A stretch of 64,000 nucleotides of DNA from Yoonia maritima. Its GTDB lineage: Bacteria; Pseudomonadota; Alphaproteobacteria; Rhodobacterales; Rhodobacteraceae. Below the pieces are notes generated by a model. The model worked only from the letters and a program-made list of their open reading frames with translations, did no database searches and was not told the DNA's origin. Location: assembly GCF_003003285.1 (NCBI RefSeq), contig NZ_PVTP01000003.1:186001-250000 (forward strand). The letters are read 5' to 3'. The first letter of the stretch is position 1. The number at the start of each line of letters is the position of its first letter. The position numbers and the translations under genes are program-made. Shown in pieces: positions 12,354 to 39,164 of this stretch.

Positions 12354-13478
12354 TTACTCGGCGTTGGCCTCGGCCCGGCTTTTGCCGGAAACATCCATCG
12401 CCAAAGTCGCGCCCATCAGACCATCAAGATCGCCATCAAGCACGCCCTTGGTGTCCGAGGTTTCAAAGCTTGTGCGCAGGTCTTTGACCATCTGGTAGGG
12501 CTGAAGTACATACGACCGGATTTGGTTCCCCCAACCTGCATCACCTGCGTTTTCATGCGCCTCGTTGACCAGTGTGGACCGTTTATCAAGCTCCATCTGA
12601 TACAAACGTGATTTCAGTGCCTTCATCGCAATGTCGCGGTTTTGGTGTTGCGACTTTTCAGAAGACGTCACAACGATCCCAGTCGGAAAGTGGGTAATGC
12701 GAACTGCGGAATCCGTGGTGTTCACGTGCTGACCGCCCGCACCCGATGAACGGTAGGTGTCCAAACGGATGTCAGATGGGTTCACTTCGATTTCGATATT
12801 ATCGTCGACAACCGGATAGACCTTAACTGACGTAAACGATGTGTGGCGCTTAGCGGCACTATCGAACGGTGAAATGCGGACCAGACGGTGCACGCCACTT
12901 TCGGACTTTAACCACCCATAGGCGTTGTGACCGCTGATCTTATATGATGCAGATTTGATGCCTGCTTCATCGCCGGACTGCTCGGATTGCAATTCAACCT
13001 TGTAGCCTTTTTTCTCGGCCCAACGCACATACATCCGCGCCAGCATATTTGCCCAATCACAGCTTTCTGTACCGCCCGCACCCGCGTTGATTTCAAGAAA
13101 CGTATCGTTGGCATCGGCTTCGCCGTCCAACAGTGCCTCAAGCTCTTTTTGCGCTGCTTTTTCGCGCAGCGCCAATATGCCATTTTCTGCTTCGGTCACG
13201 ACCTCGGCGTCGTCTTCCATTTCACCCAATTCGATCAGCTCGACGTTGTCGGCCAATTCTTGAGCGATACCATCATAGTTGGCCATCGCATCAACCAGCA
13301 TCTGACGATCACGCATCAGTTTTTGTGCCGCATCAGGATCGTCCCACAGGGTCGGATCTTCAACGCGGGCGTTGAATTCTTCTAGCCGATGCGGCGCGGT
13401 TTCGCGGTCCATGCGCTGCGCAAGCAGGTTCAGCGACTTTTCGATCGCTTCCACGGTTGTCTGGATTTCTGCGCGCAT
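12354..13478 (-). CDS. prfB: Peptide chain release factor 2
   Basis: RF2 recognises UGA and UAA stop codons and triggers peptide release. The 374-residue protein has the GGQ catalytic motif in SGAGGQHVNTTDSAVRITH and the SPF anticodon-like tripeptide in RISPFDSAAKRH, the RF2 discriminator. It is read as one uninterrupted frame from ATG 13478: the in-frame UGA and +1 programmed frameshift found in many bacterial prfB genes is absent. It is the last gene of the amidase-PBP1A-prfB run. Confidence 0.98.
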   Translation of the reverse strand: MRAEIQTTVEAIEKSLNLLAQRMDRETAPHRLEEFNARVEDPTLWDDPDAAQKLMRDRQMLVDAMANYDGIAQELADNVELIELGEMEDDAEVVTEAENGILALREKAAQKELEALLDGEADANDTFLEINAGAGGTESCDWANMLARMYVRWAEKKGYKVELQSEQSGDEAGIKSASYKISGHNAYGWLKSESGVHRLVRISPFDSAAKRHTSFTSVKVYPVVDDNIEIEVNPSDIRLDTYRSSGAGGQHVNTTDSAVRITHFPTGIVVTSSEKSQHQNRDIAMKALKSRLYQMELDKRSTLVNEAHENAGDAGWGNQIRSYVLQPYQMVKDLRTSFETSDTKGVLDGDLDGLMGATLAMDVSGKSRAEANAE

Positions 13479-13549
13479 GGTGCACCTACTTACGTGAATG
13501 AATTATCAGTGGTTCTTACAGCGGGCCACGCCCGCCCACAAGCAGGTGG

Positions 13550-16069
13550 TCAGTAAAGACCACCTGTCGAAAGTGTACCAAAGGTAGCCTTTGGACCAAC
13601 CGTTGCGGTTTCACCAGTCGAAGTCGTGACTTGGCGACCTTGGCGTGGGACTTCATCAAACAAAGGAAGGTCCCCTCCCATCGCGAAACCACCGTCAAAC
13701 ATGATGCCAAATAGCGGCTCTTCACCCGGACGGAAACATTCCGCAATCACGTTTTCACCTGAAGATCCGTCAGGCAAACGTGCCCCACTGTAGCGGTCAA
13801 TATTGATAAATTGACAATCTTCCGGTGGCGTAAACGGTCCGGCGCCGTAATGTTCGATTGCCTCGGTCATAAAGCGGTTAAACACCGGCCCACAAATACC
13901 ACCGCCCGATGCGCTTCGCCCCAATGTGCGTGGGGTATCATAACCAATATAACAACCAGCAACGATGTTCGAAGAAAAACCAATGAACCACACATCCTTT
14001 GCGTCGTTGGTGGTCCCTGTTTTACCAGCAATCGGCACGGGCAAATTGATCGCCCGGCTTGCCGTGCCACGCTCAACCACGCCACGCATCATTGATGTGA
14101 GCTGATAGGCCGTAATTTCGTTCATAACCCGGTCGCGGTTTGAAATAATCCGCGGCGCAAAGCCCGCAGGAATATAGGCATTTTCACAATCTTCGCAGGT
14201 ACGCTGATCGTGGCGATAGACAGTATTGCCGTAGCGGTCTTGCACCCGGTCAACCAGCGTTGGCTCCACACGTTCACCACCGTTCGCAAACATGGCATAG
14301 GCTGCAACCATCTTGAACAATGTGGTTTCATCAGCACCCAATGAAGCAGCTAAGCCTTGGTTCATACTTTCATAAACACCAAATTTTTCGGCGTAAGCGG
14401 CCACCGTATCCATACCAATTTCTTGGGCAAGACGGATCGTCATCAGGTTCCGCGACCGTTCAATACCTGTACGCAGCGGCGTTGGACCATAAAACTGATT
14501 GGAAGAGTTTTTAGGCCGCCACACACCTTGCGGTGTGTTGATGGTAATCGGAGCGTCAACAACGATGGTCGCCGGGGAATACCCGCTATCAAGCGCGGCG
14601 GCATATACAAACGGCTTAAACGACGAACCGGGCTGGCGCTGCGCCTGCGTGGCGCGATTAAAGACTGAATCCTGATAGCTAAAGCCACCCTGCATAGCGA
14701 TGACACGACCGGTATTGACATCCATCGCCATAAAGCCGCCCTGCACTTCCGGAACTTGGCGTAGGGACCAACGGATAAACGAACCATCATCGTCAGACGT
14801 CATACGACGCACATGAACCACATCGCCAACAGTAAAATTGTCAAAGAAGTTGCCGCGCATCCATTCGATATCACGACGCGGCACAACAAACGGCTCGGTC
14901 TCATTTTCAACTGCGTTTTCGATACCAAGGCGTAATTGGTTTTCTTCAACAGCAAGAACAACCGCCCCGTACCAATGAGATTCAAGGTCGATATCACGCG
15001 GAATATTCGTGTCGCTGAGCGCCGCGCGCCATAGGTCTTCGGATGCAAGCTGTTCTTCGGGAATAGTCACACCGGTCCCGCGCCATTCACCAGTCCCGCG
15101 GTCGTATTCTTCCAATGCCCGCTGAAGCGAATGCGCTGCGTTTACTTGCAATTCAGGATCAACGGTCGCGCGGATCGACAACCCACCCGAAAAGAATTCA
15201 TCTTCACCAAAGTTTTGCGACAGCTGACGACGGATTTCATCGGTAAAGTAATCGCGTGGTGGCAGGCTTTCTTGAAAGCTTGGGAAATCGCCGTTCTGCA
15301 CAGTGCGCAGCGGGTCATTTTGAGCTTCGGCAAGTTCGTCACGTGTCAGGTACCCATTTTCGAACATCTCGCGCAAAATAAAGTTGCGACGCGCAATGGC
15401 CGCGTCACGATTCCGAACAGGGTGATAACTATACGGAGCTTTTGGGTGCACAGCCAGAAACGCAGCCTCAGCCGGGCTAAGCGCGGATAGAGGTTTGTTA
15501 AAATACGAACGCGCTGCCGCCGTCACTCCAAATGACCGTACCCCAAGATCAATTTCAGTAAGATAAAGTTCAAGGATTTGTTCCTTGCTCATCGCGCCTT
15601 CGATACGCGTCGCAAGGATGATTTCTTTGATCTTACGTTCAAGCGTGGTTGATCCATCAAGCAAGAAGTTTTTCATCACCTGCTGCGTAATCGTCGAAGC
15701 CCCACGCAGGTTTTCGCCACGCGATGTCACACCTTCGATGATCGCTGCCAAAATACCGCGCGGATCATAGCCACCGTGCGTATAGAAATTCTTATCCTCA
15801 GCAGAAATAAACGCCTGTTTTACAATGTCAGGGATTTCTTCAGCAGGCGTGAACAAACGGCGTTCAGCAGCGAATTCATCGATAATCTGCCCTTCGTTGG
15901 AATAAATCCGACTGATAGTTTTCGGCTGATAACGCGCAAGCGTTTCATATGTTGGCAGGTCTTGGCCATACATATAGAAAACACCGCCAAGCGTCAGCGC
16001 GCCCATAATAAGGCCCATGGTCAGCAGGGTGAAAATCCCACCGATGAAAGAAAAAATGAAGCGCAGCAC
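13550..16069 (-). CDS. mrcA: Penicillin-binding protein 1A (bifunctional transglycosylase/transpeptidase)
   Basis: A class A PBP that polymerises and crosslinks peptidoglycan at the inner membrane. It has one N-terminal TM helix (LTMGLIMGALTLGGVFYMYG), a GT51 domain with EDKNFYTHGG and RGASTITQQVMKNF, a linker with an OB-like insert, and a transpeptidase domain with SSFKPF (SxxK), SRN and GKTGTTNDAKDVWF (KTGT). GTG 16069 is chosen because homologues begin at VLRFIFSF; an ATG at 16129 would add 20 residues, and neither start has a strong ribosome site. Length is about 839 residues, normal for the family. amiC upstream suggests coordinated wall synthesis and cleavage. Confidence 0.95.
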   Translation of the reverse strand: MLRFIFSFIGGIFTLLTMGLIMGALTLGGVFYMYGQDLPTYETLARYQPKTISRIYSNEGQIIDEFAAERRLFTPAEEIPDIVKQAFISAEDKNFYTHGGYDPRGILAAIIEGVTSRGENLRGASTITQQVMKNFLLDGSTTLERKIKEIILATRIEGAMSKEQILELYLTEIDLGVRSFGVTAAARSYFNKPLSALSPAEAAFLAVHPKAPYSYHPVRNRDAAIARRNFILREMFENGYLTRDELAEAQNDPLRTVQNGDFPSFQESLPPRDYFTDEIRRQLSQNFGEDEFFSGGLSIRATVDPELQVNAAHSLQRALEEYDRGTGEWRGTGVTIPEEQLASEDLWRAALSDTNIPRDIDLESHWYGAVVLAVEENQLRLGIENAVENETEPFVVPRRDIEWMRGNFFDNFTVGDVVHVRRMTSDDDGSFIRWSLRQVPEVQGGFMAMDVNTGRVIAMQGGFSYQDSVFNRATQAQRQPGSSFKPFVYAAALDSGYSPATIVVDAPITINTPQGVWRPKNSSNQFYGPTPLRTGIERSRNLMTIRLAQEIGMDTVAAYAEKFGVYESMNQGLAASLGADETTLFKMVAAYAMFANGGERVEPTLVDRVQDRYGNTVYRHDQRTCEDCENAYIPAGFAPRIISNRDRVMNEITAYQLTSMMRGVVERGTASRAINLPVPIAGKTGTTNDAKDVWFIGFSSNIVAGCYIGYDTPRTLGRSASGGGICGPVFNRFMTEAIEHYGAGPFTPPEDCQFINIDRYSGARLPDGSSGENVIAECFRPGEEPLFGIMFDGGFAMGGDLPLFDEVPRQGRQVTTSTGETATVGPKATFGTLSTGGLY

Positions 16070-30446: not shown

Positions 30447-30470
30447 ATGGTGGGTGATGAGAGGCTCGAA
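30447..30470. repeat. Distal att site (att repeat copy 1)
   Basis: A 24-base exact copy of 39088-39111, which is the 3' end of tRNA-Val (half T-arm, acceptor strand and CCA) plus one flanking base. No tRNA body follows it here, so it is the displaced end of the target and marks the far edge of the integrated element. Confidence 0.88.
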
Positions 30471-30575
30471 TTCACCCCCGAACTATATATTTCAATGACT
30501 TACAATAGCATTTGTAACCATGTAACCACCCACCAAATGGACCAATGACGTTAGGTCAGCACCCATGACATTTAG

Positions 30576-30806
30576 TCAGCCAACGCGGTTACAGGTTCTA
30601 TTTGGCCAGATTCTCTCTGACCAAGCATCTGCCAGCTCACCAAGCGTTTCGATCAGATGCGAGCGTTCGTACAACTGGCCAGTCTCAAACATGCCTTGCT
30701 TGAGAATCAAAATGGCCTGAATCACTTCGTCCGACGTGTCATTGGGTACAAAAGCAGGCCGACGAAGCGAACGCTCATAGGTCGCACAGCGAACGGTGAC
30801 TAAAGC
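30576..30806 (-). pseudogene. 5'-truncated copy of the small island protein
   Basis: An open frame of 76 codons with no usual start near its beginning (stop codon just upstream at 30807-30809). It reads PAFVPNDTSDEVIQ and then SHLIETLGELADAW. This aligns with PAFNDHYLSEAQYE and GQLIETLGELGGLW of the intact small ORF at 33193-33396, so it appears to be a diverged, broken paralogue. A short internal GTG start is possible. The 160 bases between it and the HEPN gene show nothing I can assign. Confidence 0.5.
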
Positions 30807-30965
30807 CTAAAGTTCCGGATGCTGCGTATGGCTCGGAAGTCAGCAATCCGTATGGAGCCGACGCTGCAAAAATCACGAACCATGGTCGCCCTTCTGGGCG
30901 ATCCCGATCCTTAGGAGTCGTTCGTGACAAGTAGCGCGGATGCCCGGTTTGAACATCAACGACCA

Positions 30966-32840
30966 TTATGCTTCCCGTAGCCTTCGATCCATGGTCAATT
31001 TAACCACGCTTTTCGCCTGTTCCTCAGGGGAATGAAAATCCGAAGAATTACGAACTTTCTTGTCAATGTCTTGAGACAAGTTGTTGCACTGGGTGCGGAT
31101 AAATTCCAGAGAAGCGTCGGTGTCTGCCAAACCATATCGATTAAATGTGGATTCGAGGGCGAGTATAACGGACCTAAAGTAACTATACGCATGTTCTGAA
31201 AGGTTCTGCACAACACTCGTCCTAGAAGCCTTGTGGATAATTGCATTTCTCTCGCGATAAATTCGGTTTACCTGCCATCTTACTCTGCGAATGTGCGATA
31301 GACGCAAAGCCTGTAACTTAGCCGCACTATTCGCAAGAGCTTCAAGTTCGTAGGCCCTATTGAGCAATAGAGGGCTCGTCTCTATCTTTGAGCAAAACTC
31401 GGATTTTATTGAACCGTCGGCGTAAAATATCTCGATAAAGCTAGAGAGGGCGTTATGGTCACCGAAGTTTTCACCGATGAGTTTTTCAACAGCGGCTCTG
31501 TTTATTGAAAGGCAGTCATGGCGAAATTCACTGAACAGCCTCGGGACGTAGTCAGCGGTAACGCAGGGTGTTATCATTCTCTCAAAGTGAACAATTCTCG
31601 GGACTGATTGGTCTGGTGGCGGAGGTAAAAGCCCTTCAAATCCCGCCCAGACCGCGAGAATTCGAGAATCGGGCTGCTGGCTTTTGGCTGCGAGCGATAC
31701 TGCACTTAGAGAGCTAAAGAAGCGCTGCGGAACGCTTTCAGTGCGACTTTGTGCAACTTGCACTGCGTACCTATGAAGGTCGTCTGAGATCTTAGCCGCT
31801 CCGCCATGCTCAAGGGCTCGCTCTCTTCCTGGATGAAAAAAATCGTTCAAGTAAAGCAGGGAGGCGTGATCCTCACCCTCTTTCAGGCATAACGCACTCT
31901 TAGGGGTAAAGCCTTTGCGGCCAACATCTGCCAAATAAAGGAGAGATCTAAATAACGAAATCCATTGGTTAAAGGCTCTAGCCGCTGAGTATGGATTACG
32001 ATCTTTGCGATAAGGCATCCAAACAAAAACGTCCTTTCTCCCAGATACATTCGGGAGCCTATCAATTTGGCTCGCAAACCCTTCAGGCACATCCTCAGGC
32101 TTGGTAAAAACCTCAATCTCCTCCTGCAGACCTTTCAGATATTCACCAAATTCCTTGTTTGTCTTGAAAAGAAAGCAATATTTCCCCGTGTCTTCCGTGA
32201 ATAAGTTGAAGAAACCCTTCATCTTTTCAGGTGTTAGTGAACTGACTTCGTCTTTATAGAACGTTTGGCTCGTGTTTTCATAGAGCCACTGGCGGGGGAC
32301 TCCAGAATTTATAAGTGCGGGAACGAGGAGCTTTAAAAATTCCCTCACTCGTTTCTTTGACTTATTGACAGTGCAGCCCTCCACTACAGCGCTGATACAA
32401 AACTTAATATAATCTGGAGAGACTACCTCAATCATGGTTGTTGTTAGCATGATGATCCGATCAACAGATGCGTCAGATTTCGGCGATATCGACGCTAAGT
32501 CTATACCCTTTTGAAGGCAAATCTCTTTTACGGCACAATCCCGTTGGAGTGCGTCAATATACTCCTCGACCGCGTGGGAAATGGTGGACTTAGCAATTTC
32601 ACCGTTCTTCACTTGCCACGCAAGGCTCTTAAGTTCTTCGGCTTTGAAGGGCGTGGAGGTAGCTTTCGCGCGGTAACTGGACCATGAATAGCTGTTAACG
32701 AGCTCAATGAGTTGCTCAGCGACAAGCTTGTAATATTCATCTTCCAGAGTCCCTGGCCAGCTATTTTTAAATTTCTTCATGCTGAACGGAAGCTCCACAA
32801 TATATCGACACGATTTAACGTCTGAGAAATTTGGTATCAC
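30966..32840 (-). CDS. Large HEPN-motif protein, candidate defence effector
   Basis: A protein of up to 624 residues with no membrane segment. The C-terminal helical region (about 490-600) has RQVNRIYRERNAIIH-type spacing: R531-N532 and H536 form the RX4H signature of HEPN ribonucleases. In ApeA-like defence proteins a large N-terminal domain likewise precedes a C-terminal HEPN; the N-terminal 450 residues here are unassigned. Start is uncertain: GTG 32840 opens the frame, and ATG 32780 has GGAG 12 bases upstream. The gene is visibly more AT-rich than its neighbours and sits at the cargo end of the element. Inference: abortive-infection-type RNase; homology should be tested by structure search. 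Confidence 0.6.
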   Translation of the reverse strand: MIPNFSDVKSCRYIVELPFSMKKFKNSWPGTLEDEYYKLVAEQLIELVNSYSWSSYRAKATSTPFKAEELKSLAWQVKNGEIAKSTISHAVEEYIDALQRDCAVKEICLQKGIDLASISPKSDASVDRIIMLTTTMIEVVSPDYIKFCISAVVEGCTVNKSKKRVREFLKLLVPALINSGVPRQWLYENTSQTFYKDEVSSLTPEKMKGFFNLFTEDTGKYCFLFKTNKEFGEYLKGLQEEIEVFTKPEDVPEGFASQIDRLPNVSGRKDVFVWMPYRKDRNPYSAARAFNQWISLFRSLLYLADVGRKGFTPKSALCLKEGEDHASLLYLNDFFHPGRERALEHGGAAKISDDLHRYAVQVAQSRTESVPQRFFSSLSAVSLAAKSQQPDSRILAVWAGFEGLLPPPPDQSVPRIVHFERMITPCVTADYVPRLFSEFRHDCLSINRAAVEKLIGENFGDHNALSSFIEIFYADGSIKSEFCSKIETSPLLLNRAYELEALANSAAKLQALRLSHIRRVRWQVNRIYRERNAIIHKASRTSVVQNLSEHAYSYFRSVILALESTFNRYGLADTDASLEFIRTQCNNLSQDIDKKVRNSSDFHSPEEQAKSVVKLTMDRRLREA

Positions 32841-33192
32841 TATCTATCAATGGGCTGTCCCACAATGTAAATGGTCGCCCGCACAATAGGTGGATTATGT
32901 GCTTGACGAGGTATTTCTCGATTTTGGGGAGCGGCATGTGCGCGCTCAAGCAAACAGAGGTACGATGCGGGCGTCTGGCAAACTTAGCTATGCCACCATT
33001 GGCGCATGATGCAGCGAAGGTCCGCAATCCGCCCACCGTGCCAAATCCTACACGCGCTAGGGGCACTGGAACCTTGTTTGTTGTAGGCTGAAAACGGACT
33101 TTTCATTGGTATGCACCAATGGATGCTCCGCCCTGCAAAGCGGGCAGTCACTGGACGAATTGTGAATGTCCGCTTTACTTGCAAGTGTCTAT
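32841..33192. other. Gap upstream of the HEPN gene
   Basis: About 350 bases with no ORF I can support. Overlapping short frames on both strands lack family features or ribosome sites. It probably contains the HEPN gene promoter; I could not place a convincing -35/-10. Confidence 0.5.
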
Positions 33193-33396
33193 TTAAACGG
33201 CTGCCTGCGTCTCAGGCTGGCAACTGATCGGCCACAAGCCACCCAATTCCCCTAAGGTTTCGATCAATTGGCCGCGTGGGTCCAAGCTTGGTGCAGGATG
33301 CAACAGGGCCTGCAATAGGGTTTCGTATTGGGCCTCTGATAGGTAGTGGTCATTGAACGCCGGTGTTTGGCGCACGTCAGCGGGCAATTCGATCAT
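33193..33396 (-). CDS. Small island protein, unknown function
   Basis: A 67-residue protein from ATG 33396 with the core QLIETLGELGGLWPI. The same frame stays open upstream to about 33497 without a standard start and reads plausibly as protein (GRQDAQQLAEEAGCKVTQ), overlapping the end of the tape-measure-like stub in another frame. The true protein may therefore be longer or arise after a frameshift. A broken paralogue lies at 30576-30806, on the other side of the HEPN gene. No family recognised. Confidence 0.5.
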   Translation of the reverse strand: MIELPADVRQTPAFNDHYLSEAQYETLLQALLHPAPSLDPRGQLIETLGELGGLWPISCQPETQAAV

Positions 33397-33440
33397 AATT
33401 TGGCTGCTGGTCTGGGTGACTTTGCACCCGGCCTCTTCGG

Positions 33441-33599
33441 CTAGCTGTTGCGCATCCTGTCTGCCGACTGGCTCGCGCGGCGTTCCAATGTGCGGCTAGA
33501 TGTCCGTTGCAACGTGTTGGCGCGTTTCAAACCGCGCTCGAATTTATCAATCCGCGCTTCTAGCTCAACCACTAGACCGGGAAGGTTACCTGTCGGCAT
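33441..33599 (-). CDS. 52-residue tape-measure-like N-terminal stub
   Basis: Starts ATG 33599 with AAGGA 6 bases upstream, 15 bases after the TerL stop. It reads LVVELEARIDKFERGLKRA followed by LERRASQSADRM, resembling the first residues of siphophage tail tape-measure proteins (ELEA...KLE.GLKRA...ERRA..SADR). A TAG ends it at residue 52, so it is either a truncated tape-measure gene or a short protein in its own right. The good ribosome site suggests it is still translated. Confidence 0.5.
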   Translation of the reverse strand: MPTGNLPGLVVELEARIDKFERGLKRANTLQRTSSRTLERRASQSADRMRNS

Positions 33600-33613
33600 G
33601 TGTTTTCCTTACT

Positions 33614-35245
33614 TTAAAATGTGAACAAGCCGTCGATTTCGGGGCTGTTGTATTTGCTGTTATTGGTCGCTGCGGTACATGCTCGAGAAACAGCCATTGC
33701 TGCCGCGATTGCGCCATCAATTCGGTCAGTGCGTTTACCTTTGTGCATCCTGATCAGGCCATTATCCGAACGGCTGGCAACCACGCTGTCGAAGTGCTGC
33801 CGCAAGACCGCATGACCATCGTGCCGGATCATTAGACCATTAACAGTTCGCTCTAAGTCACCAGCGGCAACACCCATTGTCAGGGGTGCCTGCCTAAACT
33901 CGACAGCAGGCAACCCGTCATCGTGCAAAGACTGCATCAAGCGGCGTGCAAGGTGGGGATCTACCGCAATTTCCTGCACGTCATTGGTGCCGCATAGCTC
34001 GCGAATTTGGTCCTCAACCGTTTCAAAGTCGATAATAGGCCCATCGCAAACCGTAATGAGGCCAGCATCAGCCCATTGCTGATAGGGCAACCCATCGCGG
34101 TCCGATCTCGCTTTGATATCATCGCCGGGGATGAAGAAATAAGGCTGCAGGGTGATCTGATCGTCAGGGTGTTTAAAAGCGGCAACCACGGATGCAAGGT
34201 CACCAGATATAGCCAAATCAACACCGACATAGCACGGATAGCTTTCAAGATCAGACAGGTCCGGATCAAATATGCGGCTGTCATACGTAGCTAAGTCGAA
34301 TAGTGGATCGCGGGAATGGCTTTTCCAGATGTTTAGGTTGAACTGCTCAAAGGCGTGCTTGTCGGCTGGCTTGCCTTCGGCCTCTTTCGCAAGGGTTTTC
34401 AAGCCTTCAAGCGAGGGGAAGCCATGCTGCAAGCCGGGATTTACGCGTTGCCAAACCTTTTCGTCTAACCAGTCGTCATCAGCTTCGGCCTCAAACAGAA
34501 TTGGCAGATACGCCGGGTTTTCGGTTTTGCCCGATGCTACATCACACGCATAGTTGTACTGACCAGCTGCGACGGTTTCGTTGCCGCGTCCGGCTGTTGT
34601 TGCGATCACCGTCAGGCTGTCGTTTACCTTAGCTGCACCACTGCGCAGCGCTTCCCATAGGTCGCGGCCTTTCCAAACGTGAATCTCATCAATCAAGGTG
34701 AAGGTGGGTGTCATCCCATGCGCCGCTTTACCGTCGGATGAGATTGCCTTGAGCGTCGTCTTTGTGTCCCTCACGATGATCTGATTGGCAGAGTTGAACG
34801 CATCATAGATTTTCGTCGCTGCAACCAGTCGCTTGTCTTCACGGATGACATTGACGGCCTCACGGAAGCCGATGCCAGCTTGCTCACGATCAGCAGCGGC
34901 AAAGACCACCTGCCCCGCAGCCACGCTTTCGGGACCAATCGTATGCAGCAACGCCAACGCCGCGGCTAAGCTGGTCTTTCGGTTACCGCGTGGGATGAGC
35001 AGAAACACGTTTTTAACGATGCGTGATCCGTCCGGGTGCCTTGGACCGTAAATCCGCCGCACGATACGCTCTTGGAATGGATGCAGCTGGAATGCCCTGC
35101 CGTCTGCCGATGAATTGGGATGCCTAAGTGCCTTGAGAAAACGCACTGCACGATCACCGTAGCCAAGCGGATCAGGGATAGCTGACCCGTCATATATCCA
35201 ATCCGGATAGGTGCTTGCTTTGATGATCGGTGCGAGGGCGTTCAT
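33614..35245 (-). CDS. Phage terminase large subunit (HK97-like)
   Basis: TerL is the ATPase-nuclease motor that cuts and packages DNA into procapsids. The 543-residue protein is complete: Walker A variant PRGNRKTS at residues 85-92, Walker B TLIDEIHVW, and an RNase H-like nuclease with VGVDLAISGD and the late Asp in RIDGAIAAAMAVS. ATG 35245 overlaps the TerS stop (ATGA), so the subunits are co-translated. It appears fully intact, unlike the prohead protease upstream. Confidence 0.93.
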   Translation of the reverse strand: MNALAPIIKASTYPDWIYDGSAIPDPLGYGDRAVRFLKALRHPNSSADGRAFQLHPFQERIVRRIYGPRHPDGSRIVKNVFLLIPRGNRKTSLAAALALLHTIGPESVAAGQVVFAAADREQAGIGFREAVNVIREDKRLVAATKIYDAFNSANQIIVRDTKTTLKAISSDGKAAHGMTPTFTLIDEIHVWKGRDLWEALRSGAAKVNDSLTVIATTAGRGNETVAAGQYNYACDVASGKTENPAYLPILFEAEADDDWLDEKVWQRVNPGLQHGFPSLEGLKTLAKEAEGKPADKHAFEQFNLNIWKSHSRDPLFDLATYDSRIFDPDLSDLESYPCYVGVDLAISGDLASVVAAFKHPDDQITLQPYFFIPGDDIKARSDRDGLPYQQWADAGLITVCDGPIIDFETVEDQIRELCGTNDVQEIAVDPHLARRLMQSLHDDGLPAVEFRQAPLTMGVAAGDLERTVNGLMIRHDGHAVLRQHFDSVVASRSDNGLIRMHKGKRTDRIDGAIAAAMAVSRACTAATNNSKYNSPEIDGLFTF

Positions 35246-35637
35246 TTGATCAACAGCGGGTTGTCGGTGTCGGCATCGTCGTCACCTGCAACGCCCATAC
35301 GCTGGCGTGACGTAGGCGTCAGGCCAAACTCAGATGCCAACTGCCGTGCGGTTGCTGCGGCGCGGTTTTGAATCCCAAACAACCTTGGGTCAATAGCGCC
35401 GCCACTGGACTTACGCTCCGCTTCAATCTCACGGATGACGCCTCGCATAATGCAGTATTCCTCTACACCGCCAAGGTCACCCTTAGTCAGGATGCGCTTG
35501 GCGATCAGGTCCGGCATAACGCGCCGCCATTCTGCTTTGGCGAAGTCCGAGAGATATCCCGGTACAGGAGGCGCTTTGGTCAGTGCATCAGCAACTGCTG
35601 TTAACGATAAGACCTTGCTCGCTTTCGCTGATTTCAT
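35242..35637 (-). CDS. Phage terminase small subunit, P27 family
   Basis: TerS recognises the packaging site and recruits TerL. The 131-residue protein has the P27-family core PPVPGYLSDFAKAEWRRVMPDL, LTKGDLGGVEEYC and an RQLASEFGLTPTSRQRM tail. The N-terminus is irregular: ATG 35637 (or TTG 35649) lies inside the protease fragment in another frame, giving about 50 bases of overlap and no ribosome site. The first residues are probably translated from former protease sequence, so the native start may have been lost in a deletion. Confidence 0.85.
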   Translation of the reverse strand: MKSAKASKVLSLTAVADALTKAPPVPGYLSDFAKAEWRRVMPDLIAKRILTKGDLGGVEEYCIMRGVIREIEAERKSSGGAIDPRLFGIQNRAAATARQLASEFGLTPTSRQRMGVAGDDDADTDNPLLIK

Positions 35638-35824
35638 CCCAGACGCCAATCACCTGTGTCTGATCATGGCCGAACAGCATCGGCAAAGATGCTGGCATGG
35701 AAAACGCGCCCTTTTCGATCACGTCGCCAACCCGGTCTGGTGTGCCGAACGGCCATGCGATGCCGGTAATCTCACCTTCGTCTGAAACTGAAAGGGTCGC
35801 CTTGATTTCTAAGCGGTCGCTCAT
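35588..35824 (-). pseudogene. Truncated HK97-type prohead protease (N-terminal 78 residues)
   Basis: The frame begins ATG 35824 (ATGA overlap with the preceding gene) and reads ITGIAWPFGTPDRVGDVIEKGAF, then MLFGHDQTQVIGVWDEISE, the conserved first half of U35 prohead proteases including the catalytic His-Asp region. It then ends after EQGLIVNSSC, whereas the family continues for another 80-120 residues including the catalytic Ser. The break falls where TerS sequence begins in another frame. It is therefore predicted inactive, and the adjoining capsid gene is missing. Confidence 0.75.
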
Positions 35825-36138
35825 GCTGCGGCCTCATCAGTCACGCCTGACCAGCGTGCATCCAAGATGTCCAAGGCAAGGGGGAAGGTTTCCGACATAG
35901 GCCGATTGCGTGCGTAGGTTTCAACTAGCTGCATTGCTTTGGCAGGAGCCATGTCGCCACCAATCAGGCCAAGCCGGATGATCTCGACCACATCAGCAAG
36001 GCTAAACTGCATTGCGACGGTACGCATGTAGAGAGCACCGACACCTGTGTCGGTAAGCCGCTCAAGTTCTGCAATCATAGCATCCGTAAGCGCGAACCGA
36101 TATTCGGCATCGCCAAAGAATGCCTTGTGCGTAATCAT
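35821..36138 (-). CDS. Gene-transfer-agent/TAC-like phage protein
   Basis: A 105-residue protein resembling the Rhodobacterales gene-transfer-agent family (tail assembly chaperone-type, PF11836-like). It has FGDAEYRFALTDAMIAELERLTDTGVGAL near the start (quoted here as pattern: FALTDAMIAELER then GVGAL), followed by FSLADVVEIIRLGLIGGD and AMQLVETYARNRPMSE. It overlaps the portal stop and the protease start, both as ATGA. Finding such a tail-related gene between portal and protease is not the usual phage order. Its task without other tail genes is unclear. Confidence 0.75.
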   Translation of the reverse strand: MITHKAFFGDAEYRFALTDAMIAELERLTDTGVGALYMRTVAMQFSLADVVEIIRLGLIGGDMAPAKAMQLVETYARNRPMSETFPLALDILDARWSGVTDEAAA

Positions 36139-37331
36139 TCGGTTTCATCCTTTGATTGGGTTGTCGGTGTCATCGTGGTGATATTGGGATTTGACAGACT
36201 GTTTCCGTCTGGCAGCGGTGCCTTGTTCAACGCGGCGCGAACTTCGTTACCAGTTAGTGCGCCCATTGCCCGATACTGCGCGAAGGCTGTGGCCTTAGCT
36301 GCAGCGTTGGTGGTCAGCAGGTCATCAATTACAAATTCGATATAGAGGCTGGTGCGCTCTTCGGGTGTCAGCAGCACCTTCGCATAGGCCCAAGTCCAAC
36401 TTGCCAGCCAAGGCCGCAGCGTTGTTTGGTAGAACTGGCGCGCAAGCTCTTCGGTGTTTGACCAAGTACCGCGTGAGAGTTCGAAAAGCATCGTTGGTGG
36501 CACACGAAAGGCGCGTGCGATCTCGCGAATTTGCTCTAGCCGGTTCTCTGCGAACTGAGCGTCCGCAAGGGTCAAGCTGAGCTGGTCGTAAGACATACCT
36601 TCGTCGAGAATGGCGGTGCCGCCTGCGGACTTGCCGGAATGTGTACTAAACCAAGACGCGGCAATCTTTTTCTTTGCGTCCACATCAAGCGCCTTGTCAG
36701 ACTTGATGATGCCGGATGGACGCCCACCATTGGCGAAGAGCGTCGCAATGTGCTGTTCGAATGCGAGGGAAAGGCCAATAGCTTCCCTACCCAGTGTGAT
36801 CGGGCTTACGCCAGCAAATGGCTGGATATGCAGAATGTCTTGGTATTCAAAGCGGGCATCGCCAGCAGTCAGCTTGACGACGTAATAAGGCGTGCCATCC
36901 GCCTCAAGCTTGGGAGTGACTGTCGCCGGATCAAGCCGATGCATCTCAAACGGGGTGCCATCGCCAAGCCGGACAACTTGAGCAAAGCCGCCCCTGTCAT
37001 TCAATAGAGCATCAGCGGTCAAGGCAGTGCGCAGCTCGCTTGCGCTGGTCCATTCATTCGCTTCGTCATGGATCAGGCGATAAGCCGGGTGATCCTTGGT
37101 GGCCTCTTTGGCTTCTGTGAATAGCTTCACTGGCAAAGTGCCGACGCTTTCACTGATCAAGGCAACAGCGCAAGATACGGCAGGAACGCGCATTGCAGAG
37201 TTGGCGCTGACGGAAAAGCCGGATGATGTCGGCGAGGCACCAAATAGCTCGAAAGCGCTTGGATCGGTTAGGGTCAACGCCTTCTGGGTAGTTTTAAGGC
37301 CCAAGGCGTTTTTGATCTTATCGAAGGCCAT
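36135..37331 (-). CDS. Phage portal protein, HK97 family
   Basis: The portal forms the dodecameric ring at the capsid vertex through which DNA is packaged. The 398-residue protein shows SAMRVPAVSCAVALISESVGTLP-type family start, HPAYRLIHDEANEW, FEMHRLDPATVTP, and the late RVPPTMLFELSRGTWSNTEE block. ATG 37331 has GGAAATGT before it. First gene of the coupled packaging set; a 14-bp palindrome lies 21 bases upstream. Confidence 0.92.
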   Translation of the reverse strand: MAFDKIKNALGLKTTQKALTLTDPSAFELFGASPTSSGFSVSANSAMRVPAVSCAVALISESVGTLPVKLFTEAKEATKDHPAYRLIHDEANEWTSASELRTALTADALLNDRGGFAQVVRLGDGTPFEMHRLDPATVTPKLEADGTPYYVVKLTAGDARFEYQDILHIQPFAGVSPITLGREAIGLSLAFEQHIATLFANGGRPSGIIKSDKALDVDAKKKIAASWFSTHSGKSAGGTAILDEGMSYDQLSLTLADAQFAENRLEQIREIARAFRVPPTMLFELSRGTWSNTEELARQFYQTTLRPWLASWTWAYAKVLLTPEERTSLYIEFVIDDLLTTNAAAKATAFAQYRAMGALTGNEVRAALNKAPLPDGNSLSNPNITTMTPTTQSKDETE

Positions 37332-37351
37332 ACATTTCCGCTTCCACTGTG

Positions 37352-37365
37352 TATGTTATAACATA
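37352..37365. promoter_or_regulatory. Perfect 14-bp palindrome upstream of the packaging operon
   Basis: TATGTTATAACATA is its own reverse complement. Flanking TGTG (37348-37351) and CACA (37367-37370) extend the dyad with a one-base offset. It lies between the integrase end and the portal start and is a plausible operator. No regulator gene is recognised inside the element. Confidence 0.6.
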
Positions 37366-37441
37366 GCACACTCGAGCGATCATGTGAATCCACAAAATGA
37401 CAGCACTGCTGACCTTTTATTAAGACAGCAAAACTGACCTA

Positions 37442-38998
37442 TTATCCAAGCCTGTACCTCGGCAATCTCTCAATGGCTGCGGCTTTGGTGGCAATGGTCA
37501 CATCACCATATGCATCGCCAGCGGTGCGCCCTGCATGGCCTTGTATCGCATCCATCACACGATCAGAGATTCCAAGCTCCATACACTGCGTCTTGAGTCG
37601 ATGCCGCCATGCGTGACTAGGTGGTAGACCTTGCGGACTTAACCCCGCCGTGCGCAACCATGTAGCAAGCTGGTTTGAGATTTGCTTTGATTTGCGCACA
37701 TAGCTATCCGGCGTCTTTCCGTTGTGGAACAAAGGCCCCTGCCCTGATGCGTTCAACAAATCAGCAAATCCCTCGTCTATGATCTGCGAATGCAGCGGTA
37801 CATCGCGATAACCACCAGTTTTCACGCTACCTGCATCTGGCGTGATCCTAGCCACCCAAAGGCCATCAACTTGCCGAATATCTTCTTTGCGTAGCTGCGT
37901 AATTTCGGTAACGCGCGCGCCTGTGAATGCGCAGATAATCGGCACCCACCGCTTTGCTGTCACAAACGCCGGCGTTTCTCGGATGTATCCGTTTTCATCT
38001 GCATGAGGTTGGTAGGACCGGGCCGCCCTTAACAGCTTGACCGCTTCTTCGTCTGTATAGCCCCGTTCACGACTGAAGGCCTTTTTAGGTTTCGGCTGCT
38101 TTACGTTTAGCGCCGGGTTTTCTGGTATGTGGTCGTTATCGACAGCCCACTCGAAGAGGGTTCGCATTGTCGATAAGTAAACATCGCTAATGGTTTTAGC
38201 CTGATATGATTTTAAGAGGTGGTCGCGCCACTCGAGCAGGTTCTTCTTCGTCACCTTGAGCGCATTATCATGGCCAAGAAATTTGCATAGGTTATCAATG
38301 ACCGGCGTTTGCCGCTTTGCACCGTCTTTCATGAAACCCGCTTGCTTGCGCGACAAGACATACTCAGCCCACAGCTTCTTGATACTCACCCGTTTCTGCG
38401 GCTTCTCAAGAGGCGTAGCATTCACAATGATAGGTGCCGTAGGCTGCCCGGAAAAATCACCTTCATCGCGCTCAGCGGCTCGCGCTAGGGCTTCTAGCTC
38501 AGCGCTACACAAAGCACGCGCAACAACGCGCCATTCATCACTTCCAGTTGGTGCGTCGAAATTCCCTGCGGCACGAAACCTTTGGAGCTGATCACCTGTT
38601 AGGGCATCAAGCTCAGCATCATTTGCACGGCCAGCAATTGCATCCCGCAACCTTTGGGCCAGTATATCATCAATCCCGATGGCGGCATATCTAGGGTCGT
38701 TACGCAGCTGATCATCAAACGCCATACGGCGCACATACTGGGCATAAGCGATCTGATCGGCGGCAAGCGGATAACGCGGCGCGGCCCCTACCTGCCCTTG
38801 CTTGCGCTCAGCTTCACCGATTTGGTTTTGAAGGCTAGCAACGGCACCCGGTAGTTTCCTGAGTGCGTCGCGGTAATCGGCACCTAGCGCTGTACGCAAT
38901 TCGCTCTTACCGACGATTCCCCGTAGATCCTTGGGAACAACCAGTCTCGCAAAATAGCGCCCCCTGCGGTTCAGCAGATGCATAACTTTCCCAGCCAT
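37442..38998 (-). CDS. Tyrosine recombinase/integrase of the element
   Basis: A 518-residue site-specific recombinase. It has an N-terminal DUF6538-like region (HLLNRRGRYFARLVVPKDLRG), a SAM-like core-binding domain (about residues 200-300, WAEYVLSRKQ to MRTLFEWAVDNDHIPENPA) and a catalytic domain with the Arg in FTGARVTEITQL, HAWRHR (HxxR), GHAG and the nucleophile Tyr near residue 497 in DAYGDV. The open frame continues to 39121, but those residues are translated from the att repeat and tRNA, so ATG 38998 (or 38983) is the start. It faces away from tRNA-Val, whose 3' end it presumably targets. Confidence 0.93.
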   Translation of the reverse strand: MAGKVMHLLNRRGRYFARLVVPKDLRGIVGKSELRTALGADYRDALRKLPGAVASLQNQIGEAERKQGQVGAAPRYPLAADQIAYAQYVRRMAFDDQLRNDPRYAAIGIDDILAQRLRDAIAGRANDAELDALTGDQLQRFRAAGNFDAPTGSDEWRVVARALCSAELEALARAAERDEGDFSGQPTAPIIVNATPLEKPQKRVSIKKLWAEYVLSRKQAGFMKDGAKRQTPVIDNLCKFLGHDNALKVTKKNLLEWRDHLLKSYQAKTISDVYLSTMRTLFEWAVDNDHIPENPALNVKQPKPKKAFSRERGYTDEEAVKLLRAARSYQPHADENGYIRETPAFVTAKRWVPIICAFTGARVTEITQLRKEDIRQVDGLWVARITPDAGSVKTGGYRDVPLHSQIIDEGFADLLNASGQGPLFHNGKTPDSYVRKSKQISNQLATWLRTAGLSPQGLPPSHAWRHRLKTQCMELGISDRVMDAIQGHAGRTAGDAYGDVTIATKAAAIERLPRYRLG

Positions 38999-39087
38999 TT
39001 CACAGCCCGTTTGTAACCAAGTTTGTAACCTTGAAACGGACTTACCCCTAGCAATGCAAGGGTTTTCTTTAATAACAATGGGATAGG

Positions 39088-39111
39088 ATGGTGGGTGATG
39101 AGAGGCTCGAA
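39088..39111. repeat. Proximal att site (att repeat copy 2) in tRNA-Val
   Basis: Exact 24-base match to 30447-30470. All but one base lie within the tRNA-Val 3' end, so integration restores a complete tRNA. Confidence 0.88.
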
Positions 39112-39164
39112 CTCCCGACATCTTCCGTGTAAAGGAAGCGCTCTACCAACTGAGCTAATCACCC
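39089..39164 (-). tRNA. tRNA-Val(TAC)
   Basis: On the minus strand a 76-base cloverleaf with encoded CCA. Acceptor GGGTGAT pairs with ATCACCC, discriminator A, anticodon loop TTTACAC (TAC) closed by CTTCC/GGAAG, and TTCGAGC T-loop. Its 3' 23 bases are the att repeat of the 8.6-kb element. Confidence 0.97.

Follow-up and report, generated by a model that had tools for sequence, protein, structure and literature searches.

An apparent remnant of a capsid-encoding, tape-measure-bearing element family in a tRNA-Val gene of Yoonia maritima

An integrated element with packaging genes and defence cargo

The window (the whole stretch of 64,000 nucleotides analysed here) contains an element of 8,641 bp at positions 30447-39114, inserted in a tRNA-Val(tac) gene (39089..39164, minus strand; ARAGORN and Rfam) whose 3' end is the integration target and forms attL. 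The 27-nt att repeat at the tRNA (39088..39114) has a distal copy at 30447..30473 that is identical in 26 of 27 positions, the first 24 exactly, and the two copies, delimited by repeat comparison and by an empty site, start 8,641 bp apart. This agrees with the original prediction, made from the DNA letters alone, of a ~8.6-kb element flanked by a 24-base direct repeat of the tRNA-Val 3' end.

Counted from the tRNA, the element carries an integrase, a portal, a GTA-gp10-like tail assembly chaperone (TAC_11), a protease fragment, TerS, TerL, the start of a tape-measure gene, a small gene (orf67) and a gene for a 624-aa protein, all on the minus strand. The tyrosine integrase (37442..39121; DUF6538 and Phage_integrase domains, Pfam and PHROGs) is full length, with a family start probably at residue 42. 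The portal (36135..37331; PF04860, 4.9e-91; phrog_12), TAC_11 (35821..36138; PF11836, 1.8e-25) and TerL (33614..35245; PF20441, PF03354) are also full length, and TerS lies at 35242..35649 (PF05119, 7.9e-19). By their coordinates, portal and TAC_11, TAC_11 and protease, and TerS and TerL overlap by 4 nt each. Residues R403, R506, H529 and Y538 are invariant in an alignment of seven family integrases, as are D186, E187, D343 and D429 in the 11 aligned TerL proteins; we take these to be the catalytic residues. An integrase adjoining the tRNA, a portal, a TAC-like gene, TerS and an intact TerL had all been predicted, and Pfam and PHROGs confirmed each of them. The protease placed in the same gene row is there, but only as an N-terminal fragment of 78 aa (35588..35824) corresponding to positions 4-83 of 165 of PF04586. 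Capsid and connector genes are missing from the element, no HNH relative was found in it, and the predicted absence of a capsid gene held. The predicted absence of tail genes did not hold entirely, as a trace is left in a 52-aa N-terminal piece of a tape-measure protein (33441..33599; phrog_17300, 2.9e-4); next to it, on the downstream side, lies orf67 (33193..33396), a small family gene that has relatives in 14 of the loci retrieved. IMG/VR holds 5.5 kb of the element as UViG 2731639257_000002, with identical (100%) portal and TerL; this contig may come from the same strain.

The 624-aa gene (30966..32840) lies at the far end, where defence-like cargo had been predicted. Residues 40-561 of its product match residues 22-533 of the 593 of the solved Ec2ApeA (PDB 9hxi, E 3.5e-33), and the PADLOC model for ApeA gave a weak match (3.7e-4). 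A HEPN-type R-x6-H motif, RERNAIIH, is found at residue 529, and the loose pattern also fits at 339, 434 and 597. The gene matched nothing in Pfam, PHROGs or NCBIfam and had no relative in viral contigs. Similarity over most of Ec2ApeA, together with the C-terminal HEPN motif, supports its assignment as an ApeA homologue, an ApeA-like antiphage protein carried as defence cargo. Other members of the family carry, among the matches listed, cargo with defence-type matches to NsnA, PD-T4-2, mads_1, AbiJ and type IV restriction models.

The site is unoccupied in a same-genus genome

The original prediction had also proposed a comparison with empty sites. When the window flanks were joined at the repeat, they aligned over 326 nt (score 290) to the same-genus genome G005, in which tRNA-Val is followed by a tRNA-Asp pair about 210 bp away. 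Among the same-genus genomes, G005 also has the neighbouring gene closest to that of the window (phosphoglycerate mutase-like, 92% identical). This locus is the empty site of the element, which confirms the element's boundaries and identifies it as an insertion, with both the att repeats and the empty site of an integrative element at a tRNA. A weaker alignment across the same span was obtained with genome G455 (score 149.5), and at two further loci (L112 and L120) the joined flanks aligned on the tRNA side only. Proximity of tRNA-Val(tac) to the phosphoglycerate mutase-like gene was seen in 30 of the 30 places for which DNA was at hand (54 places in total), the window's own included. Repeats elsewhere in the window's own genome were considered for the non-coding stretches 30475-30966 and 32845-33190 and rejected, each being single copy. 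Just outside the element, the gene at 29414-29962 matches the C-terminal family of the T6SS immunity protein Tdi1 at a score slightly under the threshold (26.9 of 27.4 bits).

Relatives retain the genes that are absent at two deletion junctions

Relatives found through TerL or portal keep the order integrase, portal, TAC, protease, then TerS, TerL and tape measure, and carry the genes missing from the window copy between its break points. At the first junction, family homology of the window protease ends at residue 74 of about 145, and the protease C-terminus is missing along with the capsid fused to it. The start of TerS lies inside the protease sequence in another frame: the family sequence is not shared by its first ~15-19 residues, of which about 15 are read from protease sequence, and family homology begins at about residue 20. 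In the relatives, about 4-6 kb separate protease and TerS. The second junction is in the tape measure, which ends after 52 residues in the window and is encoded by ORFs of 607-918 aa in the family.

The combination integrase-portal-TAC-protease-TerS-TerL at tRNA-Val, for which the original prediction had suggested a search, was found in a Nioella locus (L003). It sits in the same tRNA-Val(tac) with a full gene set, the protease-TerS stretch comprising the protease C-terminus fused to the major capsid protein (MCP), a TAC_6-like gene, HNH, Ad1, Neck1, a tail terminator and Hc1. L003 thus has a capsid, which comes close to what the prediction had named as its own refutation, the same locus in close relatives complete with capsid and tail genes. 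By this comparison the window copy appears to be a remnant that has undergone two deletions and carries an ApeA-like defence gene, most simply a product of decay. It has presumably lost autonomous transfer, and could still be mobilised given its full-length integrase, portal and TerL.

A 12-gene block is conserved in 28 loci

Profile searches revealed 28 loci (27 distinct, as L062 repeats L005) that share a 12-gene block in the same order on one strand: portal, TAC_11, protease::MCP, TAC_6-like, HNH, Ad1, Neck1, tail terminator, Hc1, TerS, TerL and tape measure. The TAC_6-like protein falls just below the Pfam cut-off, and the family tape measure matches phrog_10574 (4e-126). Protease and capsid are usually fused, the integrase usually adjoins the portal, and all named hosts are alphaproteobacterial. 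Window copies and short stretches (L014, L001, L030 and the short loci L031-L041) were left out of this count. Fourteen further loci have the TAC_6-like gene in a partial block or another order, among them short contigs, the circular plasmids L050 and L052, and the loci L011 and L065. A slot between HNH and Ad1 varies from 101 to 2,332 bp, and variable cargo follows the tape measure; orf67 relatives and a second small family (142-165 aa in the seven first found) are each part of it in 14 loci.

The family is uncommon. The TerL search gave 12 loci in genome contigs, the portal search 16 in IMG/VR including the copy of the window element, and the tape-measure search 49 in the same database, many of which matched only in part. 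At E<=1e-90, nine of the 394 host-family genomes, counting the window's own, have a portal match. In the search for relatives at E<=1e-30, 2 of 60 genomes matched, namely the window genome and the same-genus genome G014, which has two distant portal genes (36% and 27% identical; L031, L032, L059, L129). The distance of about 3 kb between the second of these and the same tRNA-Val/tRNA-Asp region hints at an integration hotspot. Among 50,697 phage records, no TerL, portal or MCP match exceeded 60% identity; for the tape measure, 12 matches reached 60-80% identity and the rest were lower, with none of 422 covering 80% of the protein. The family is not described among the literature matches listed, from a search that excluded subscription papers.

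We then considered whether these genes are maintained. Nei-Gojobori dN/dS of 13 genes (the block and the integrase; up to 11 close pairs, with saturated or identical pairs giving no value) was 0.03-0.53 and mostly below 0.3, mostly below 0.15 for portal and capsid, and 0.10-0.20 for the tape measure in three pairs. A split or interrupted core gene was found in 5 of the 28 loci (four distinct elements): the portal in L005/L062, MCP and TerL in L019, TerL in L047 and the tape measure in L064. In L047, from genome G090, TerL is interrupted at about 13340-14453 by ~1.1 kb of unidentified sequence, and genome G075 is without most of TerL and tape measure. The low dN/dS therefore suggests that the family is largely maintained, with some members decaying.

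Members are of similar size and differ in their maintenance module

Of the 15 family loci tested, eight showed exact att repeats, which bound elements of 17.6, 17.8, 18.4, 17.8, 16.8, 16.2, 20.2 and 18.0 kb; the 20.2-kb member is the one with ~1.1 kb inside TerL. No repeat was accepted in L006, L008, L019, L022, L043, L046 or G311, several of these loci starting inside the integrase or ending early; in G311, a 16-nt match 31.8 kb apart was not accepted. In 7 of the 28 loci the integrase is ~24-30% identical to that of the window and the portal 49-66%, so that part of the family is more variable in its integrases than in its head genes. The circular Paracoccus marcusii plasmid NZ_CP157016.1 (L050; 17,494 bp) carries the same block, with a rep gene instead of the integrase. 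Its tape-measure gene crosses the start of the record and is missing from the PLSDB gene table. Integrase divergence and the plasmid form suggest that maintenance modules can be exchanged with little change in element size, and a plasmid with the same block and nearly equal size points to a packaging limit and not to a site-specific history.

Tail-tube, baseplate and lysis genes were not recognised

When all 4,105 ORFs from the 28 loci were searched with a tail-tube profile, none matched at E<=1. As a control, the tube sequence of L013 recovered itself and five of five other loci of a sister lineage. A GTA g9 query returned noise only and left the sister loci unrecovered, and is no test of tube absence. 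In L075, the HNH-Ad1 slot of 101 bp is too short for a tube gene. The sister lineage (L007, L009, L010, L012, L013, L052 and L065) keeps a major tail protein between the head genes and the connectors, and L010 a distal tail protein as well; judged by gene content, these loci appear to form a gradient of tail-gene retention.

Non-core proteins of L002, L003, L005 and L044 were compared with PHROGs one by one, with no match to a tail or lysis family. Those of L002, L044 and L005 matched HNH and unknown families only; the L003 matches were to head, connector, tape-measure, HNH and unknown families, plus a ParB-like one at E 0.014-0.033. The L003 TAC_6-like protein has a weak tail-family match (phrog_2115, 0.014), and the C-terminus of its tape measure matches an endolysin-named profile. 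The scan covered all but four small or core-overlapping ORFs (L002 18292-18462; L005 6752-7465 and 18383-18520; L044 10011-10427, on the reverse-complemented locus). Among the proteins scanned in these four loci, the tail tube, baseplate or tip, lysis and replication genes of a complete siphophage were not found. A wider set of 57 non-core proteins (eight loci and the window) matched 17 Pfam families, with no AlpA or primase among them; XkdW (0.0014, 1 of 57) and REP_ORF2-G2P (1.8e-4) were weak matches, and Rep3 was also seen. The PHROGs matches listed for this set (25 of 53) include Cox-like (2 of 57) and replication-initiation entries; tail and lysis entries are absent from that list. Family members may nevertheless carry an unrecognised tail or lysis gene.

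Comparison with known satellites and gene transfer agents

In the accessible text of the sources, capsid-forming PICIs (cf-PICIs) encode their own head, connectors, terminase and HNH and use helper tails (PMC10690885; also PMC10803314), are widely distributed across Bacteria (PMC10690885), and have signature genes including terminase, prohead protease, AlpA, head-tail adapters and Pri-Rep (PMC10448857). Alphaproteobacteria are absent from the main host list in that of PMC10803314. Set against these accounts, the family is similar in being small and integrated, in encoding a major capsid, protease, portal, connectors, HNH, TerS and TerL of its own, and in lacking a full tail set. All 28 loci have this head, connector and packaging set, unlike the window copy, which has lost capsid and connectors and retains TerS and TerL. 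The family differs in carrying a tape measure, TAC_11, a TAC_6-like chaperone and a tail terminator, whereas cf-PICIs, in our reading of those texts, have no tail genes of their own beyond connectors. The AlpA and Pri-Rep signature genes were not found among its 57 non-core proteins, its members are 16-20 kb compared with a cf-PICI average of 14 kb, and the usual protease-capsid fusion, the usual position of the integrase beside the portal and the alphaproteobacterial named hosts set it further apart.

The available part of PMC10448857 also reports putative satellites with capsid and tape-measure genes, att sites and most tail genes missing, so a tape measure in a putative satellite is not wholly new. 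As described there, those elements lack terminase, prohead protease and head-tail adapters, all three of which the family has, and possess a baseplate component, for which no gene was found in the family. The Streptomyces elements MulchRoom and MiniFlayer, according to the main text of PMC10690885, resemble the family in having a full capsid and packaging set, no primase and (MulchRoom) a helper tail; unlike the family, they have virulent helpers, terminal repeats and Streptomyces hosts, and that text does not mention a tape measure. Pseudomonas AH14b was set aside as a comparison because the element, in the part of PMC4936722 available, is without structural genes, and PMC5537653, in its available part, deals with full-size Sinorhizobium prophages.

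The RcGTA-like cluster of the window's own genome (L057; G000:C1:198001-216000), its only other PF05065/PF04860 locus, shares HK97-type head genes and, by Pfam name, the gp10-type chaperone family with these elements. It differs in its complete tail cluster, and no integrase was noticed in it. With portal and MCP of L003 28% and 32% identical to those of the GTA, we rejected the GTA as source of the element. PICIs and P4-like satellites have no capsid of their own and carry a capsid-redirecting gene and a primase. In contrast, the family encodes its capsid, and no primase family was found in the 57 non-core proteins.

Discussion

We consider it probable that the window element is what two deletions have left of a member of a tRNA-integrated, once plasmid-borne, family of 16-20-kb elements that encode their own head and would depend on a helper and borrow its tail tube. 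In such a life cycle, an intact member would excise, be amplified with the assistance of a helper and package its genome into its own small HK97-type head; the helper phage would supply tube and tip, and the member's own tape measure and chaperones would redirect helper tail assembly. As cf-PICIs combine their own head with helper tails, we infer helper dependence and tail borrowing for the family by analogy, and a tape measure with two chaperones in elements without a tube suggests an added step, the redirection of helper tube assembly.

The original prediction offered a choice between a reduced prophage and a satellite that is equipped with motor and portal but takes its capsid from a helper. 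That the element is heavily reduced is borne out by the loss of its capsid and connector genes and of most of its tape measure. The borrowed capsid is supported by the gene content of the window copy and its defence cargo, but the truncated protease and tape measure mark deletions, the relatives encode a capsid fused to that very protease, and L003 has one in the same tRNA. Since the family normally encodes its own capsid, this reading is unsupported, and we regard it as the least likely of those considered here. The idea of a satellite survives in another form: the parent family does not look like complete prophages, with 16-20 kb and no tail-tube, baseplate, lysis or replication gene recognised, but what it would borrow is tails and not capsids. 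Only slightly less improbable than capsid borrowing is a functional short form, a second-order satellite packaged in the capsid of an intact relative, whose head two units would fill. Its integrase, portal, TAC_11 and TerL are indeed full length with invariant motif residues, and 2 x 8,641 = 17,282 bp (17.3 kb) falls within the att-bounded size range. This match may however be due to chance; two window genes end as fragments, TerS has lost its native N-terminus, no HNH relative was found, a portal match at E<=1e-30 occurred in only one (G014) of 35 other same-genus genomes, at 27-36% identity, and the sole near-identical copy is the IMG/VR contig, possibly of the same strain.

A more serious competitor, though still unlikely, is that the 16-20-kb relatives are themselves reduced prophages of ordinary temperate siphophages with no satellite life cycle. 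Tape measure, tail terminator and tail chaperones would be superfluous for a pure tail thief, the sister lineage keeps a major tail protein and in one member a distal tail protein, and the split core genes and the losses in G075 are what decay would leave. Decay would not be expected, however, to preserve one identical set of 12 genes in identical order in 28 loci, nor do the sizes (16.2-20.2 kb in eight att-bounded members, 17.5 kb in the plasmid), the low core-gene dN/dS in the pairs measured and the lack of any TerL, portal or MCP relative above 60% identity among the phage records fit this explanation well.

Returning to the helper-dependent, tail-borrowing family, we searched seven genomes for HK97-type capsid loci and identified no helper phage in them. 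In four (those of the window, L002, L003 and L005), the only other such locus was an RcGTA-like cluster; the hosts of L004, L006 and L008 have further capsid matches besides the element. In the first four the GTA could conceivably serve as helper, an idea that we mention only in passing. A co-resident helper is not required, because a cf-PICI was not detectably mobilised by any of the 17 prophages of its own strain, according to the accessible part of PMC11389934. In Paracoccus rhizosphaerae, the host of L006, three capsid matches are nearly equal (256 bits; frames of 518-531 residues) and stand beside one of GTA size; they are perhaps several family copies in one strain.

A conserved family that encodes its capsid and bears a tape measure is plausible as a variant of satellite. 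More tentatively, at somewhat less than even chances, we propose an alphaproteobacterial satellite family with its own 16-20-kb head, a tape measure and chaperones but no tube, which would swap the ruler of the helper tail instead of taking complete tails, and whose integrase and rep modules would be interchangeable on one head block. If the family is a satellite, self-made capsids extend to a group of Alphaproteobacteria, and one may ask why a tape measure is kept without a tube; the family then bears on the question of whether tail length in hybrid particles can be dictated by a satellite. The window copy, for its part, illustrates how the decay of an element can leave a defence gene behind.

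A class-wide capsid search matched 7 of 385 genomes (G614, G710, G581, G706, G014, G541 and G727). The first four of these had no tape-measure match and were kept out of the family counts. Two of their loci (L147 in G614 and L150 in G706), likewise alphaproteobacterial elements, have portal, protease::MCP, TerS and TerL and look closer to classical cf-PICIs, and in G614 an integrase-like ORF, judged by eye, lies beside a tRNA-Glu gene.
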